DNA from: a virus
Strand: one strand, 5' to 3'
DNA: 20,386 bases
IMG/VR virus record: IMGVR_UViG_3300046007_003393
Span: 1 to 20,386 of that record
Each line of letters begins with the position of its first letter. The first letter of the stretch is position 1. The notes under the pieces are model-generated. The model worked only from the letters and a program-made list of their open reading frames with translations, was not told where the DNA came from and searched no databases. Of this stretch, positions 6,087 through 13,120 are shown in pieces. A program made the position numbers and the translations under genes.

Positions 6087-6111
6087 AGGCAGGTAGAATA
6101 GACTCATGGCT
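6087..6111 (+). repeat. 25-nt start-associated repeat, copy 2 (tail-tip gene)
   Basis: Exact copy of 2387-2411, here overlapping the first residues of the tail-tip gene and the stop region of the minor tail gene. Identity ends one base beyond GCT on the right and at the A of AGGC on the left. Confidence 0.9.
6094..6106 (+). promoter_or_regulatory. Leaderless-type -10 element before the tail-tip gene
   Basis: TAGAAT (6094-6099), AGACTC, then ATG at 6106, the same arrangement as at the tape measure gene. TCGACA at 6069-6074 resembles a -35 hexamer, but the 19-nt spacer is long. No Shine-Dalgarno is present. Confidence 0.5.
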
Positions 6112-7520: not shown

Positions 7521-8368
7521 AGATCCTCCGCCTGACCTCGCCGCTGACCGAGGGCACCGCCGTCGCCCTAGCGCAGCAGCACCTCGTCAAGTATGGCGTG
7601 CTTGCCAAGACCGCCGTAGACGGCATTTACGGCCCCGTGACGGCGAACGCAGCGAAGAGGGCTAAGTACCTGCTGGGCTATGCAGACACCGCAGGGACGT
7701 ACGACGCGGCACTACAGGCGTTCATGAGTGGCAAGACGAAGCCGACGGTCGCGATGCGCGCCCGTGTCGCGGCGCGGAAGCGAAAGCCGCTCCCGTCGTT
7801 GACTCTGGGCGAGCGTGCCGCTGACCGAATGGTTGGCTGGTACAACGCGCGCTGGTCGGAGAATCCTGCCGGGTCGAACTTCGTCCAGCCTCTCTCCCTG
7901 CTCTGCAAGGATCTCCGGCTTGCCGCCTACTACTACCAGATGAACTACGCCTGGTGCGCGCTCGCAGCATTCACCGCCTACCTCGCCGAAGGCTCGACAG
8001 CCGCGAAGTACGGGTTGCGCGAAGGCAAATACAACGCGCTCTACACGCCAGAGATCCGCGCAGTCGCCGAGCGTGGCGCGTACGGGTTGGCTTCGCAATC
8101 CAAGACAACGATCGTCAAGGGAACCGCGCTCCTGTTTGACTTCGGCGGATCGAACGGCTCGGAGGTCGACCATATTGGCATCGCCCTCGGCAAGCCTGGT
8201 CAAGTCGTCAAGGCTGGCGGCAAGACGTGGCGACCCGGCAAGAACTCGGTCGTCACGGTCGAAGGTAACACGTCCTACGACGACTCTGGTAGCCAGTCCA
8301 ATGGTGGCTGCGTCGCGATCCGAACGCGTAGCCTGACCGTCATCCGCGCGGCGGTACGCGTACAATAA
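7517..8368 (+). CDS. Endolysin: peptidoglycan-binding domain plus CHAP amidase/peptidase
   Basis: A 283-aa endolysin. Residues about 13-70 form a peptidoglycan-binding domain (KTAVDGIYGPVTANAAKRAK is the canonical 'vDGiyGp.T..A' motif). A basic linker follows (RARVAARKRK, about 81-90). The C-terminal catalytic region fits a CHAP domain: Cys147 in YAWCALA, His219 in EVDHIGIAL and Glu249/Asn251 in VTVEGNTS as the expected Cys-His-Glu/Asn residues. It degrades host cell wall at lysis, released by the holin immediately upstream. No signal peptide. The GTG start overlaps the holin stop, implying coupled translation. Confidence 0.88.
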   Translation: MKILRLTSPLTEGTAVALAQQHLVKYGVLAKTAVDGIYGPVTANAAKRAKYLLGYADTAGTYDAALQAFMSGKTKPTVAMRARVAARKRKPLPSLTLGERAADRMVGWYNARWSENPAGSNFVQPLSLLCKDLRLAAYYYQMNYAWCALAAFTAYLAEGSTAAKYGLREGKYNALYTPEIRAVAERGAYGLASQSKTTIVKGTALLFDFGGSNGSEVDHIGIALGKPGQVVKAGGKTWRPGKNSVVTVEGNTSYDDSGSQSNGGCVAIRTRSLTVIRAAVRVQ

Positions 8369-8397: not shown

Positions 8398-8637
8398 ATG
8401 GGACTGCTAGACGAGATCGGCGCACAAACGAAGTCGCGACATAGACCGTGCATCGTGACGGAGATCCTCGACGACTTGCCAATCGAGGACGCGCGAGAAC
8501 TACAGCTAGCCCTCGACGATGCGGCGATGACTCATACCGCGATCACGCGCGTCCTCGTCAACCGTGGCTACCCGGTCGCGCCTAACGGGAAGCAAGTGGC
8601 GAATCATCGCCACGGGTCTTGTCAATGTCGGGCATAG
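8398..8637 (+). CDS. Small HTH-like DNA-binding protein with Cys-rich tail
   Basis: A 79-aa protein starting at an ATG behind a GGGGAGGG ribosome-binding site. The central part (DLPIEDARELQLALDD, then THTAITRVLVNRGYPVAPNG) reads like a short helix-turn-helix in which a resolvase-type 'T-AI-RVL---GY' helix pair is followed by a basic His/Cys tail (NHRHGSCQC). I have seen similar small proteins in actinophages, but the role is not established. It overlaps the downstream metallophosphoesterase gene, so the two may act together. TACAAT at 8361-8366 could be a -10 for this pair. Confidence 0.6.
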   Translation: MGLLDEIGAQTKSRHRPCIVTEILDDLPIEDARELQLALDDAAMTHTAITRVLVNRGYPVAPNGKQVANHRHGSCQCRA

Positions 8638-9626
8638 GCAAAGAGGTCGCGCTCGAAGTCAGGTGTGACGAACTAGCGCAAACGTGCGCGCATTTGCAGC
8701 GCCAACTCGCACGCGCGAAGGGCAAGTCTGCGGATCTCGTCGCAGCCGTCGAGCGTGCCGCGCTAGAGTCGGCGAGCATCGCCGGCAGAGGCAAGGCAGT
8801 CAAGGCGCCGAAACGTGACAAGCGTCCAGGCGGCGAAGTCGCCCTGCTCCACCTCACAGATTGGCAGCTGGGTAAGCAGACGGAATCCTACGACACCGAG
8901 GTCTGTCGGCTGCGCGTCATGACGGCTGTAGCAAAAGTGCTACGGCTGACGGAGATCCAGCGCGCAGCGCACCCGGTCGACGAGATCCACGTCATGCTCG
9001 GTGGCGACCTGATCGAGAACGTGACGATCTTCAAGATGCAACCATTCGAGGTTGACAGCTCGGCGACGATGCAAGTCTTCGCAGCTGCAACCCTGATCGA
9101 GTCCGTGCTGCTGACGTTGCTTGAGAACTTCGAGCGCGTCGTGGTGCACGAAGTGCGCGGCAACCACGGGCGGATCGGTCTAAAGGGCGAGACACCAGAC
9201 AACTGGGATCGTGTCGTCGGCAGGATCGTCCGCGAGCGTCTGATCGACCCGCGCCTCGCGTGGGAAGCGCCAGACAACTGGTACGCCATCGGCGAGATCG
9301 GAGAGTACCGATTCCTGCTGGTCCACGGAGACCAGGTAAAATCGTTCGGGGGAAATACGCCGGCTTTCGGAATTATCCGCAAGGCTACGGCCTGGTCCTC
9401 GGGTGTTCTTGAAGGATGGGACGACCTCTACCTCGGGCATTACCATCACGTCAGCCAATTCCAGATCCCGAACGGTGGACGCGTCTTCATGACGGGCAGC
9501 ACCGAATCCGGCAGCGAATATGCACGCGAGTTTGTCAGCGCGAAAGGTAAGGCGTCGCAGCGGCTTCACTTCGTCGACCCGCGCGCCGGGCGCGTAACTG
9601 CCGAGTACGTCATCTGGCTCGACTAG
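8625..9626 (+). CDS. Calcineurin-like metallophosphoesterase (SbcD/Mre11-type)
   Basis: A 333-aa phosphoesterase from the ATG at 8625 (TTG at 8619 is an alternative). After a coiled-coil N-terminus (about 10-50) and a basic linker, the metal-binding motifs appear in order: LLHLTDWQLGK (Asp79), GGDLIEN (Asp128), VRGNHG (Asn180-His181), VHGDQ (His234) and GHYHH (His272, His274). The first motif has DxQ where DxH is usual; I recall DWQ variants in phage relatives. It probably acts on nucleic acid (nuclease or phosphatase), but the substrate is unknown. The gene is last in the plus-strand block and is followed by terminator-like hairpins. Confidence 0.82.
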   Translation: MSGIGKEVALEVRCDELAQTCAHLQRQLARAKGKSADLVAAVERAALESASIAGRGKAVKAPKRDKRPGGEVALLHLTDWQLGKQTESYDTEVCRLRVMTAVAKVLRLTEIQRAAHPVDEIHVMLGGDLIENVTIFKMQPFEVDSSATMQVFAAATLIESVLLTLLENFERVVVHEVRGNHGRIGLKGETPDNWDRVVGRIVRERLIDPRLAWEAPDNWYAIGEIGEYRFLLVHGDQVKSFGGNTPAFGIIRKATAWSSGVLEGWDDLYLGHYHHVSQFQIPNGGRVFMTGSTESGSEYAREFVSAKGKASQRLHFVDPRAGRVTAEYVIWLD

Positions 9627-9629
9627 GCG

Positions 9630-9656
9630 CGCTCTACACGTCTGGCGTGTATAGCG
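9630..9656 (+). terminator. Hairpin after the metallophosphoesterase gene
   Basis: Arms CGCTCTACACG (9630-9640) and CGTGTATAGCG (9646-9656) pair over 11 bp with one mismatch around a 5-nt loop. It lies 4 nt after the stop codon at 9626. There is no T tract, as is often the case for GC-rich actinobacterial terminators. Confidence 0.55.
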
Positions 9657-9677
9657 TCTGACTGGCGGCGATGGCGC

Positions 9678-9702
9678 GTAGATAGACACGGCACCTATCT
9701 AC
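9678..9702. terminator. Inverted repeat in convergent intergenic region
   Basis: GTAGATAG (9678-9685) and CTATCTAC (9695-9702) form a perfect 8-bp stem with a 9-nt loop. It lies between the convergent plus- and minus-strand operons and could act on either transcript. Confidence 0.4.
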
Positions 9703-9710
9703 ATGACGGT

Positions 9711-9744
9711 GCGGAAGCGTATCAATCCGATACGCTCTAGCCGC
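9711..9744. terminator. Hairpin with nested stem in convergent region
   Basis: AGCGTATC (9716-9723) and GATACGCT (9729-9736) pair perfectly across a 5-nt loop. Outer GCGG (9711-9714) and CCGC (9741-9744) extend the stem past a small bulge. It is symmetrical, so it may terminate transcription from either side. Confidence 0.45.
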
Positions 9745-9757
9745 GCAATGATGCGAA

Positions 9758-9796
9758 GTAAGAGCGCCTTACCAGCGCGCGTCGCAGACTTGTGCG
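9758..9796. repeat. 39-bp direct repeat R1, distal copy
   Basis: Matches 9895-9933 at 33 of 39 positions (137-nt offset). The two copies flank the 17-codon gene remnant and the long hairpin. Each copy contains a small GTAAG/CTTAC stem of its own. Confidence 0.8.
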
Positions 9797-9846
9797 GATT
9801 AGGCTTGGAAAGTATCCGCCTGGGCGATACTATTCAAGCCTAATCC
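9796..9846 (-). terminator. Long hairpin, likely terminator of the minus-strand operon
   Basis: GGATTAGGCTTG (9796-9807) and CAAGCCTAATCC (9835-9846) are perfect 12-bp complements. The stem continues inward with one wobble, one further pair, one mismatch and AGTATC/GATACT, about 20 bp in all, capped by a 9-nt loop. Read on the minus strand, the first arm contains the TAG stop of the duplicated HTH-gene tail. It is therefore placed as the natural terminator of a gene ending with that tail. Confidence 0.65.
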
Positions 9847-9893
9847 TCGGTCGCGTAGGCGCCGAACTGGCGCCCATGAACATCGACGTGCGA
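9840..9893 (-). pseudogene. Duplicated 3' end of the 10854-11282 HTH gene (remnant)
   Basis: In the minus-strand frame this reads SHVDVHGRQFGAYATED then TAG, identical in protein sequence to the last 17 residues of the HTH gene at 10854-11282. The two nucleotide differences between the copies are both A/G changes at third codon positions and are silent. Upstream in frame is a stop codon (9906-9908) and there is no start, so it is not an independent gene. It lies between the Mom-like gene and the long hairpin. Confidence 0.75.
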
Positions 9894-9894
9894 G
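9840..9894. repeat. 55-bp direct repeat flanking the Mom-like gene, copy A
   Basis: Matches 10854-10908 at 53 of 55 positions with a constant 1014-nt offset. The two copies bracket the Mom-like gene exactly: copy B ends the HTH gene at the Mom-like start codon, and copy A lies after the Mom-like stop. Confidence 0.9.
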
Positions 9895-9933
9895 GTAAGC
9901 GCGCCTTACCGGCGCACGTCGCAGAGTTACGCG
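9895..9933. repeat. 39-bp direct repeat R1, proximal copy
   Basis: Partner of 9758-9796 (33/39 identical). It includes the TAA stop and the last codon of the Mom-like gene and contains a GGTAAG/CTTACC stem with a 5-nt loop (9894-9910). Confidence 0.8.
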
Positions 9934-10853
9934 ACTCCGCCACGATCCTTCGGATACTCGTACGTCTTATTGATCTCCGAGAATCTCGCGCGCAGTTGCG
10001 CTGTCTCTTTTTTATTGGCACCGCAAAGCATCGCGTACTTGTGCTTCGGCGGGACGGGGATGCTATCCGACTCGGCGTGCTTCACTTTGCTCTGCTCGCG
10101 TAGTTGCTGCTCGATGTCGTCGGGTATGTTGTCCCACGCCATCCCCGTCGCGTGGCACCAGTCTGCACGCCAACGGATACCAAGCTCTTTGGCGTACCTC
10201 TTGTATGCCGAACGCGAACGGAAGAAGCGATCCGAAACGTACTTCCCCGTGTAAGGATTTATGTGTCGCGTCGCCGCGCCCGAGGTCTGACCGAGGTAGT
10301 AGAAATTGCAGGCTTGGTAGATCGTGCCGAGTTCCTTCGCCATCGGGTCGGAGTACGCCGTGAACAGTCGGTATTGGGTGGTCTGCGCCATGTCTTTGAT
10401 GCTCGACATGATGAACGCGCTGGCAAGATTCTTCGGCGACCAGGACACGCACGCGCCTCGACTGATTAGGCGTTCAAGGTTCGGGGTATCTTCGCCGAGG
10501 AGTTTGCTGAACGCGTTAGGCATGTTGAACAGGAGGGCGCCGGCGAGGATTGTCCCGTGATACGCGCCATACCAATGCGTCGTGTATTGGGATAGGTTGC
10601 CGAGCCATTCGTGCCGATGGATGAACCGCGTAAGATCCTGCTTGTCTTCGGTGCTGGTGACTTGACGAAACTCGAAGTCAGACACGCGCAAGGTTGCCGC
10701 GTAGTCCTCGGTCATGCCGGCGTCGAGCAAGTCGTCTACGCGGTTACGCAGACGAATGTCGTACTGCCAGCAATGCGACTCCGTATACTCGCGAGTCTCC
10801 GGCGCGTTCGGCTGCGTCGATTCTTCCTGCCATAGTTGCAGGGCGCCTTGCAT
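9927..10853 (-). CDS. Mom-like GNAT-fold protein, putative DNA modification
   Basis: A 308-aa protein. Residues about 80-220 resemble a GNAT fold of the kind found in phage Mu Mom (adenine methylcarbamoylation) and related phage proteins: HWYGAYHGTILAGALLFNMP (strand-turn-strand), ISRGACVSWSPKNLASAFIM, then RLFTAYSDP and GTIYQACNFYYLGQT, followed by a basic tail (DRFFRSRSAYKRYAKELG). The 'SDP ... GTIYQA-NFYYLG' pair is the feature I rely on. Mom is shorter, so the N-terminal 80 residues and C-terminal 80 are extra. It starts directly after the stop of the HTH gene (TAGATG) with GAGGA upstream, so it is co-transcribed. Direct repeats flank it. Another GNAT-type transferase is possible; the Mom link needs a profile search. 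Confidence 0.5.
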   Translation of the reverse strand: MQGALQLWQEESTQPNAPETREYTESHCWQYDIRLRNRVDDLLDAGMTEDYAATLRVSDFEFRQVTSTEDKQDLTRFIHRHEWLGNLSQYTTHWYGAYHGTILAGALLFNMPNAFSKLLGEDTPNLERLISRGACVSWSPKNLASAFIMSSIKDMAQTTQYRLFTAYSDPMAKELGTIYQACNFYYLGQTSGAATRHINPYTGKYVSDRFFRSRSAYKRYAKELGIRWRADWCHATGMAWDNIPDDIEQQLREQSKVKHAESDSIPVPPKHKYAMLCGANKKETAQLRARFSEINKTYEYPKDRGGVA

Positions 10854-10908
10854 CTAATCCTCGGTCGCGTAGGCGCCGAACTGGCGCCCGTGAACGTCGA
10901 CGTGCGAG
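10854..10908. repeat. 55-bp direct repeat flanking the Mom-like gene, copy B
   Basis: The functional copy: the last 18 codons, including the stop, of the HTH gene. Partner of 9840-9894, differing only at two silent positions. Confidence 0.9.
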
Positions 10909-11282
10909 CCGGGTGCGCCGAAGCGTTCGCGCCATTCGGCGATCGTGTACGTACAACCATCCGGCTCGGTGTCGAAGACGTGGCTACTGACAACGGGCGG
11001 CTCGGCGGCGACGGGCTTGCCAACCTTCGCTCCCTTGTCATTCGACCAGGGCGCGTACAACTCACCATCGCCACGCGCTAAGTCGATAGCGTCAAGGAAC
11101 GTCTGCGCGCGTGGACCCCAGCGCGCGATGATCTGGTGACGCGCACCCTTCGGGATACGCCGATCACCCGTGACGTAACGCGTAACGCGTGGACGCTCGC
11201 AGCCAATCACGCTAGCCAGCTCGTCAGCGTCAATCTCCAACTGAATCATGAGTGCGCGGCTCGGCGACAAGACCGGCATCAC
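10854..11282 (-). CDS. HTH (XRE-like) protein with conserved C-terminal tail
   Basis: A 142-aa protein (GTG at 11282; the adjacent ATG at 11279 gives 141 aa). The N-terminal part contains an XRE-like helix-turn-helix: IDADELASVIGCERPRVTRY then VTGDRRIPKGARHQIIARWG. The middle is a Gly/Pro-rich linker, and the C-terminus (TIAEWRERFGAPGSHVDVHG...) carries the 17-residue tail that is duplicated at 9840-9893. It is likely a DNA-binding regulator; no dimerisation or protease motif suggests a classical repressor. The start overlaps the stop of the small basic gene upstream, and the stop abuts the Mom-like start. Confidence 0.6.
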   Translation of the reverse strand: MMPVLSPSRALMIQLEIDADELASVIGCERPRVTRYVTGDRRIPKGARHQIIARWGPRAQTFLDAIDLARGDGELYAPWSNDKGAKVGKPVAAEPPVVSSHVFDTEPDGCTYTIAEWRERFGAPGSHVDVHGRQFGAYATED

Positions 11283-11407
11283 GCCGCCGCCTTCGCCGCT
11301 CGACGCTTCGACTTCGCAGCCAGCTTCGCGGCGCCACGGTCCAAGCGCACCTTCATATTCGCCGCGATCTTATTCTGACCTAAACGATTGCGCCTTTTGT
11401 TGCTCAT
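11279..11407 (-). CDS. Small, very basic protein
   Basis: A 42-aa protein starting at the ATG behind a GGGGAG ribosome-binding site. It begins MSNKRRNRLGQNKIAANMKV and ends AAKLAAKSKRRAAKAAA: nearly a third Lys/Arg, many Ala. This resembles histone-H1-like or nucleic-acid-binding tails, but no family was recognised. The stop overlaps the start of the HTH gene. TATGAT on the minus strand (complement of 11438-11443) could be its -10, giving a leader of about 24 nt. Confidence 0.55.
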   Translation of the reverse strand: MSNKRRNRLGQNKIAANMKVRLDRGAAKLAAKSKRRAAKAAA

Positions 11408-11457
11408 CTCGTTCTCCCCTGGTGGTGGTGTTCGACGATCATACACAATCTGGCGAA

Positions 11458-11487
11458 CACCCGGCAGGACGCGAATCCTGCCGGGTG
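11458..11487. terminator. Perfect 12-bp hairpin in the minus-strand operon
   Basis: CACCCGGCAGGA (11458-11469) and TCCTGCCGGGTG (11476-11487) pair without mismatch across a 6-nt loop. It lies 62 nt downstream of the stop of the 11550-11789 gene and about 50 nt upstream of the small basic gene. No T tract follows on either strand. It could terminate or attenuate transcription, or protect an mRNA end. Confidence 0.55.
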
Positions 11488-11549
11488 CGAGTCGCCCGAG
11501 GGAGGGGAGGGCGCCTGCATACAGGATACCCGTCCCCTCGCTGTTATCA

Positions 11550-11789
11550 TCACGCCGTGGGTGCGTCGCCTGTCCCCGTGGTGGTGGACTGCGACGCACC
11601 CGCCTTCACGATCAACCCGACCGCAGCGCGCGTTAGTCCAACCATGTCGCCGATCGCCTGAAGCGTCATCTCTGGGGCTGCCTTCCTAATCAGATGGTCA
11701 CGGTCACGCCGGCGAGCCTGCACGATGAACTCTGCATCGAGCAGCTCATCCGCCGCGTTGTAGAGGTCCGCTTGGATCTTGGTTCTCAT
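11550..11789 (-). CDS. Small HTH protein
   Basis: A 79-aa protein. Residues about 36-62 (RKAAPEMTLQAIGDMVGLTR then AAVGLIVKAG) form a clear helix-turn-helix of the sigma-70 region 4 / MarR-like short type: 'TLQAIGDMVGLTRAAVGLIVK'-style spacing. The N-terminus (MRTKIQADLYNAADELLDAE) is helical and charged. It is a probable small regulator. Its ATG overlaps the stop of the 58-aa gene upstream (ATGA). The last codons lie in one arm of an 11-bp inverted repeat (11559-11569 with 11591-11601). Confidence 0.65.
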   Translation of the reverse strand: MRTKIQADLYNAADELLDAEFIVQARRRDRDHLIRKAAPEMTLQAIGDMVGLTRAAVGLIVKAGASQSTTTGTGDAPTA

Positions 11790-11962
11790 GCTGCCACCTT
11801 CCGGTTCCGCGACTCGTAAACGGCGTAGGCTCGGGCTTCGGGCAGGTAGTCGAAGTCATGTCTAGATTCCCGCACAACGACGACATAGCGCCCCGCATCT
11901 GTCGCCCACAACTGCACGACAGGATCGGTAGTCGATGAGACGTAGATCAGGGTTGCGCTCAC
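11786..11962 (-). CDS. 58-aa hypothetical protein
   Basis: A short frame filling the gap between the XF1762-like and small HTH genes. It starts at a GTG that overlaps the upstream stop (GTGA) and ends in an ATGA overlap with the next gene, so both ends show translational coupling, the main reason to accept it. The protein reads MSATLIYVSSTTDPVVQLWA, then YVVVVRESRHDFDYLPEARA and ends RNRKVAA: a compact alternation of strands and a charged helix. No family was recognised. Confidence 0.7.
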   Translation of the reverse strand: MSATLIYVSSTTDPVVQLWATDAGRYVVVVRESRHDFDYLPEARAYAVYESRNRKVAA

Positions 11963-12513
11963 GATTCACCACCAAACAAAGTAGGGTCAGATTCTTCGGA
12001 CAACGCTTCAGGGATACCGACCGACGTAGGTGAGTCGGTCCTATGCAGAACCTTCGCCCATCGTTGCTTGACCGTCGTTGGCTGATCCGTTCTCCGCGCC
12101 TTCCCATCGGTGTGCTTCCATTGTCCGCCGCCGGCGGCTCCCTCGTTAGTCCACCCCGCAGCAAGTAGCGTTGCTCCTGTTTCGCTGTCGAGAATATACG
12201 TCTGGATTCGCAGATACCCGCTCGCCTTTCCAGATCGAGCGGCAGCGGCATACAGCATCGAGCAAGCGTTTGGCGTCCCGTCGGTAACGAGCCGAGTGAC
12301 TTCGAGTACCTGCCGCGGGTGTCCCGCAAGTCGGGCAACGGGTCGCCCGATGATTGCGGCACCGCGTACCTGGTCATCGTCATCGATGACGCCGATGCTG
12401 AAGCGATGTCCCTGGCATGGCTGATGATGACGATGCCAAGCCGCGACCACGGCATTCGCTTCCTTCAATTCAAGCGGAACGACCCGCAGGCTGATTGCTC
12501 CCTCGGGCTTCAC
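11959..12513 (-). CDS. XF1762-like protein, putative GNAT fold
   Basis: A 184-aa protein with the layout of the XF1762 family found in phages and prophages: VVAAWHRHHQPCQGHRFSIG (residues 22-41), GRPVAR (56-61), a V-L-EVTRLVTDGTPNACSMLY block (about 69-88), Tyr106 in YILDSETGATLLAAGW, and a C-terminal GGGQWKHTDGKARR basic segment. The 'EVTRL ... DGT-NACS-LY ... GY ... E-G-L-AAGW' pattern resembles the substrate-binding half of GNAT proteins; the true activity of the family is unknown to me. GTG start overlaps the stop of the preceding gene. It lies in the same operon as the Mom-like gene. Confidence 0.7.
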   Translation of the reverse strand: MKPEGAISLRVVPLELKEANAVVAAWHRHHQPCQGHRFSIGVIDDDDQVRGAAIIGRPVARLAGHPRQVLEVTRLVTDGTPNACSMLYAAAARSGKASGYLRIQTYILDSETGATLLAAGWTNEGAAGGGQWKHTDGKARRTDQPTTVKQRWAKVLHRTDSPTSVGIPEALSEESDPTLFGGES

Positions 12514-12767
12514 AACTCACCACCCGTGTACCAAGTCGCTGGGTGCATTGGCTGGATGTAGTTTTCTGGTCGATAGTCGGTACTCGATGGGAATGGTGTC
12601 CGGCAGAGCGGCTCACCAAGTGCTTCGAGGGCTTTCGAGATGTTGCGCTGGATATCGTGAAGCAATTCGCAGGCAGAGTCATCGCCGCATTCGGAATACT
12701 CGTGCATCTGATCGATCATTTCCGACATGTCGAAGCGAGCGCATTGGAGGTGGTGGGCGGCGCTCAT
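12510..12767 (-). CDS. Hypothetical early protein
   Basis: An 85-aa protein, beginning MSAAHHLQCARFDMSEMIDQ. The ATG at 12767 is chosen over the upstream in-frame codon at 12785 because it follows a full AGGAGG ribosome-binding site by 6 nt. The N-terminal half is helical and acidic (MHEYSECGDDSACELLHDIQ), the C-terminal half is Pro-rich (PFPSSTDYRPENYIQPMHPA). The stop overlaps the GTG of the XF1762-like gene (GTGA). No family recognised. Confidence 0.6.
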   Translation of the reverse strand: MSAAHHLQCARFDMSEMIDQMHEYSECGDDSACELLHDIQRNISKALEALGEPLCRTPFPSSTDYRPENYIQPMHPATWYTGGEL

Positions 12768-13032: not shown

Positions 13033-13071
13033 TTCAATCTCCTGTGTGGTGGTGGCGGTTGCCATGCAGTA

Positions 13072-13100
13072 AAGATAGGGCATAAATATCCCCGTGTCAA
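13072..13100 (-). promoter_or_regulatory. Strong early promoter, minus strand
   Basis: On the minus strand a perfect TTGACA (complement of 13095-13100) is followed after exactly 17 nt by TATCTT (complement of 13072-13077). Transcription would start near 13065. This is the best sigma-70-type promoter in the window, and its -35 is one half of the palindrome at 13095-13112. Confidence 0.75.
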
Positions 13101-13112
13101 GTGCAATTGACA
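13095..13112. promoter_or_regulatory. Near-perfect 18-bp palindrome, candidate operator
   Basis: TGTCAAGTGCAATTGACA equals its own reverse complement except for one base pair (positions 7 and 12). It sits in the middle of the divergent early region, covering the -35 of the minus-strand promoter and lying 8 nt upstream of the plus-strand one. This is the position expected of a repressor or activator site controlling both operons. Confidence 0.6.
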
Positions 13113-13120
13113 AACTGGTG

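Follow-up and report, generated by a model that had tools for sequence, protein, structure and literature searches.

Morons in mosaic phages are precise insertions between resident genes, at sites that are empty in relatives and that can hold various cargoes at one point. In Cluster J mycobacteriophages, unrelated HNH genes lie at one intergenic point and share the same left junction (PMC3706429). Islands and integrative elements that use the 3' end of a gene are flanked by a direct repeat equal to that end and leave the gene intact, and microhomology-mediated tandem duplication or unequal recombination sets two versions of a segment in tandem across a short joint. A locus that resembles all of these was found in 20,386 nt of virus DNA from an uncultured phage (IMGVR_UViG_3300046007_003393, positions 1 to 20,386; hereafter the window), where a Mom-like gene is inserted behind an HTH gene. 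This Mom unit is a moron-type acquisition in a mosaic phage, with an unusual scar. What sets it apart from other morons is the 55-bp copy of the upstream gene's tail, along with the copy of the resident downstream element, that flanks the cargo; the Mom-like gene also starts on a resident ribosome site (a scan of 8500-12600 found no sigma-70-type promoter of its own). No account of such a scar was found in the open-access literature searched; precedents may exist elsewhere.

The repeat had been described in a first-pass annotation made from the sequence alone, and both a repeat search of the window (9840-9894 versus 10854-10908; 53/55 identity at a spacing of 1014) and blastn (96.4% identity, E 9e-19) recovered it. 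Copy B (10854-10908, minus strand) comprises the final 18 codons and stop of the HTH gene (10854-11282, minus strand), an open reading frame of 142 amino acids with an uncertain start codon. Copy A (9840-9894, minus strand) is a second HTH tail that lies outside any gene; it begins 32 nt past the stop of the Mom-like gene (9927) and leads into a hairpin at 9796-9846, so the earlier description of a coding tail stranded behind that stop holds. Both mismatches between the copies are at third positions and silent in the HTH frame, as had been noted; the suggestion that this reflects coding constraint on both copies does not stand, copy A being non-genic and carrying a non-silent change in the related contig L002. 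An assembly error is an unlikely source of the repeat, since the same tail/Mom/tail arrangement is present in three independently assembled contigs, one nearly the same as the window (L001/L087; 99.95% identical over 10.7 kb) and two divergent (L002 and L003). Homologs of the HTH protein share 75-85% identity in L002-L005 and 52% in L215; among annotated phage records, tblastn found no HTH relative, and a DNA-level comparison of the region likewise gave no useful match.

The gap behind the HTH gene is closed on its other side by a convergent phosphoesterase/exonuclease-like gene (8619-9626, plus strand; phrog_284, E 1.4e-45). The first-pass annotation had proposed that the HTH gene was ancestrally followed by its terminator hairpin, that relatives might show this order with no Mom-like gene between, and that a unit of about 1 kb carrying this gene had entered at the HTH 3' end. 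Comparison of filled and empty sites bears out all three points: in L004, L005, and L006, the HTH stop is followed directly by one hairpin (hp1), then by a second (hp2), and then by the convergent phosphoesterase gene. In more distant relatives (L205, L207, L209, L210, L212, and L214) and in L215, a Thermoleophilia metagenome-assembled genome (MAG) contig from Lake Baikal, just 26-67 nt separate the HTH and phosphoesterase genes; together with the empty close relatives, these short gaps suggest that the empty slot is probably the ancestral state. The assignment of L215 also makes an Actinomycetota host possible, and the phage group may infect Actinomycetota, with the caveat that MAG binning can err. 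In L089 the slot is occupied by a different Mom gene plus one more gene; in L204, L206, L208, L211, and L213 its occupants are small and unrelated genes. These differing contents indicate that the gap is an accessory-gene slot.

Slot contents gave no Rfam match. L086 has a 115-nt non-coding insert right after the HTH stop (9837-9951, plus strand of the locus) that contains no tRNA and has complementary ends (GTTGTCC/GGACAA). In L089 (598-1860), the slot's Mom-family gene precedes another gene, which has a leader resembling a promoter and a hairpin resembling a terminator, and hp1 is missing.

The Mom-like gene (Mom1; 9927-10853, minus strand; 308 amino acids) alone fills the unit, which, as had been stated, encodes no recombinase. 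Its product matches PF25680 over only 142 of its 308 residues (E 1.9e-12, 47.7 bits versus a curated cut-off of 27.1) and also matches phrog_1384; a PDB sequence search with the protein matched no solved structure. Mom of phage Mu modifies adenines of the phage DNA, evading restriction, and by analogy the cargo probably modifies adenines of its own phage's DNA against restriction. The window and L002 versions differ at 22 synonymous and 2 nonsynonymous codons, so the gene looks to be under purifying selection.

Both ends of the Mom-like gene appear to draw on resident DNA. Its ATG lies directly after the HTH TAG, and a GAGG in copy B (10859-10862) is at Shine-Dalgarno distance before it, as read from the sequence; this arrangement suggests that translation of the HTH and Mom-like genes is probably coupled. 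Mom relatives end in YPKDR or YPKDRG, whereas the protein of the window continues with GVA*, for which GTCGCGTAAC codes. This same sequence precedes hp2 in the slot of L006, and the terminal codons GTC GCG TAA are common to the resident flank; the gene's 3' end thus runs into resident DNA, and its last codons and stop derive from there.

Downstream of the Mom-like gene stand two hairpins, both without a clear T-run. The first, hp2' (9880-9932, minus strand; nhmmer E 2.4e-15), lies beside copy A and is an extra copy of hp2 (9742-9795, minus strand; E 3.8e-15), the resident downstream element; it constitutes a second, imperfect repeat that is absent from the first-pass annotation. The other, hp1 (9796-9846, minus strand), starts in the tail's GGATTAG and is conserved at the HTH stop in the empty relatives; folded with the copy A tail, it reaches -50.4 kcal/mol (z -6.1), in keeping with the strong hairpin reported there earlier. 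The order of elements in the window is therefore tail, Mom, hp2', followed by tail, hp1, hp2. The hp2 profile is found once each in the empty genomes L004, L005, and L006, once each in L086 and L089, and twice in filled genomes, and nhmmer detected no hp2-like element beside the other Mom genes covered by that search. Between hp2' and copy A lies TCGCACG (9887-9893, minus strand), a 7-nt stretch common to the HTH tail and to the end of hp2 as it occurs in L086, which has the motif in both places. Microhomology of at least 7 nt at random joints has a probability of 0.0009; the microhomology is nonetheless short, and hp2 alleles vary. The joint of hp2' and copy A (within 9880-9932) also gives rise to a perfect stem of 9 bp, CGACGTGCG/CGCACGTCG, which exceeds the stem of the parental elements in length.

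The unit has moved between lineages. Over 9840-10853 the window and L002 are 97.3% identical, compared with 84.6% for the HTH gene, 80.8% for the intergenic region, and 87.2% for the phosphoesterase gene; at third codon positions the Mom-like gene diverges from L002 by 6.8%, and the seven other measured genes by 19-45%. Because third positions diverge so little, the likeness of the two Mom-like genes points to recent shared ancestry, not to constraint, and these comparisons indicate that the unit of about 1 kb moved as a block. Copy A travelled with it, since in L002 this copy has 8/55 mismatches to L002's own HTH tail and 2/55 to copy A of the window. The left exchange point lies in GAGGATTAG and the right one in GAGGATTAGGCTTG, in both cases among the final 9-14 nt of the tail. 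Their position fits recombination halting at the edge of non-homology, and two exchange points confined to this same stretch are compatible with the insertion of a circle at a single point as well.

The first-pass annotation had proposed that the tail was regenerated on insertion, as genomic islands do at tRNA ends, and a small element that integrates at the HTH 3' end by means of a recombinase acting in trans would agree with an insertion exactly at the end of the gene, with the existence of both empty and filled sites, and with both L002 exchange points inside the end of the tail. We consider such an element quite unlikely. Unlike 3'-end integrative elements, the unit lacks an integrase, its copy A in L002 does not derive from the tail of the target, and the resident downstream element hp2' lies inside the unit, as does a Mom stop derived from resident DNA; tail regeneration is thus not supported as the main reading.

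We favor, as the probable course of events though with appreciable doubt, a tandem joining of filled and empty versions of the slot, followed by homologous spread. The tandem versions are suggested by the duplicated resident hp2, the TCGCACG joint, and the resident stop codon. The ancestral empty slot would have read HTH tail, TAG, hp1, hp2, and a Mom-family gene would have entered it in one lineage, right after the TAG and replacing hp1. There the gene would have taken its ribosome site from the tail (GAGG) and its end from a resident stop codon; this intermediate is inferred, and no Mom-hp2 arrangement lacking a second tail was found among the relatives. The filled version would then have recombined, illegitimately or unequally, with the tail of an empty version at the 7-nt TCGCACG, leaving tail-Mom-hp2' ahead of tail-hp1-hp2, so that the 55-bp repeat would be the overlap of two tandem slot versions. 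The block would later have spread across divergent lineages, its movement being visible in L002 and homologous recombination being the probable means. Every filled example goes back to the same joint, so the two-step order, itself inferred, rests on a single event. Microhomology-mediated tandem duplication would leave the same arrangement as the joining of filled and empty versions; the difference from a simple duplication is that here the versions differ (Mom in one, hp1 in the other) and the block later spread between lineages. An ancient tandem duplication with a partial gene in between had been named by the first-pass annotation as an outcome that would overturn its reading, and it comes close to this result; the other such outcome, both repeats in all relatives, is contradicted by the empty sites.

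Copies of gene junctions were also found at other insertions. The Mom gene of L089 (Mom2; PF25680, E 2.2e-32) terminates in a copy, read in frame, of the last HTH codons (22/26, stop-aligned; 0/2000 shuffles, score 16 versus a shuffle maximum of 11), and its relatives are without that HTH-like ending. In L005, a two-gene cassette that is absent from L086 lies between copies of a 24-nt ATGA stop-start junction (7766-7789 and 8514-8537; 22/24, p about 0.01). The window itself contains a second Mom-like gene (Mom3; 11959-12513, minus strand; phrog_1384, E 3.2e-33), a precise insertion absent from L004, L005, L006, and L086, whose end GGTGGTGAATCGTGA resembles that of the upstream gene, GGTGGTGAGTTGTGA; this 15-nt copy is weak (13/15, p about 0.03). 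Junction overlaps across insertions measure 55, about 24, 7, 4, and 0 nt, several clean insertions having 0-7 nt; the ungapped test used misses a repeat at indels, and its zeros are uninformative for Mom1 in L005 and L006 and for the L005 cassette in L086. Flanking repeats were also considered as a general feature of Mom genes, and this was rejected, as nothing comparable occurs at the roughly 50 other Mom loci; in L015, L017, L049, L071, and L084 the flanking matches are weak or of a different kind.

That the different Mom gene of L089 also ends in a copy of the tail would suit an integrating element. The first-pass annotation had suggested looking for other genes flanked by the same 55 bp; the brackets at other insertions in these phages differ in sequence and length, which argues against a single integrase site (att core), and most of the other Mom loci have no flanking repeat at all. 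One-step insertion with target duplication, in which a staggered break at a gene junction is filled in so as to copy 15-55 nt, would place junction copies around Mom1 (55 nt), Mom2 of L089 (26 nt), the L005 cassette (24 nt), and Mom3 (15 nt). This too appears rather unlikely for the Mom1 unit, given that it leaves hp2' within the unit unexplained, that other clean insertions in these phages overlap by just 0-7 nt, and that no nuclease or end-joining system has been identified for it. Nor are features of a transposon present: there is no fixed-length target duplication, and the repeats listed include no inverted-repeat pair at the unit ends. In L089 and L005, on the other hand, the junction copies have no hp2-like partner, which counts against the tandem joining and makes a more direct duplicating insertion possible.

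It is also conceivable that selection keeps or rebuilds the repeats, the junction being needed on both sides as a stop with a Shine-Dalgarno sequence or as the left arm of hp1. The GAGG before the Mom start, the L005 and Mom3 repeats (ATGA/GTGA stop-start overlaps with a ribosome-site-like stretch), and the use of the tail's GGATTAG as an arm of hp1 are consistent with such a role. As an origin of the repeat it is nonetheless very improbable: a 53/55 match is far above what a stop and ribosome site need, no gene starts after copy A, and the tail hairpin is not conserved in L005 and L006. A broader pattern, which we offer tentatively as possible, is recurrent gene gain without an integrase, in which Mom-type and other accessory genes would enter gene junctions, become bracketed by 15-55-nt junction copies, and borrow the resident ribosome site and stop, the repeat then providing homology for transfer of the cassette. 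Junction copies may be favored for supplying a stop codon and ribosome site.

Other repeated sequences were seen at gene starts. An identical 25-nt sequence, AGGCAGGTAGAATAGACTCATGGCT, spans the starts of the tape measure gene and the gene at 6106 (2387-2411 and 6087-6111, plus strand), and the window contains no further copy within 3 mismatches; the TAGAAT just 5' of its ATG resembles a putative leaderless-mRNA promoter. A leader like ATGGCAACnACnACnCAnGAG, with a short peptide MATTTxQE, is common to several accessory genes, around 13037-13117, at 1342-1421 in L089, and in the slots of L204, L206, L208, and L211. Leaders of this type recall the start-associated sequences known from Cluster K mycobacteriophages (PMC3203893).

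Gain of single genes by phages without a recombinase is usually inferred just from clean comparisons of presence and absence. At this locus a scar (tail copy, hairpin copy, microhomology joint, and borrowed stop) is seen together with empty, filled, and alternative slots in close relatives, so that the steps of acquisition can be reconstructed. The locus is also a warning that a copy of a neighbor's 3' end around a gene does not by itself mark that gene as an integrated element. Its cargo probably counters restriction, by analogy with Mom of phage Mu, and this small phage group carries three distinct Mom-type genes as insertions.
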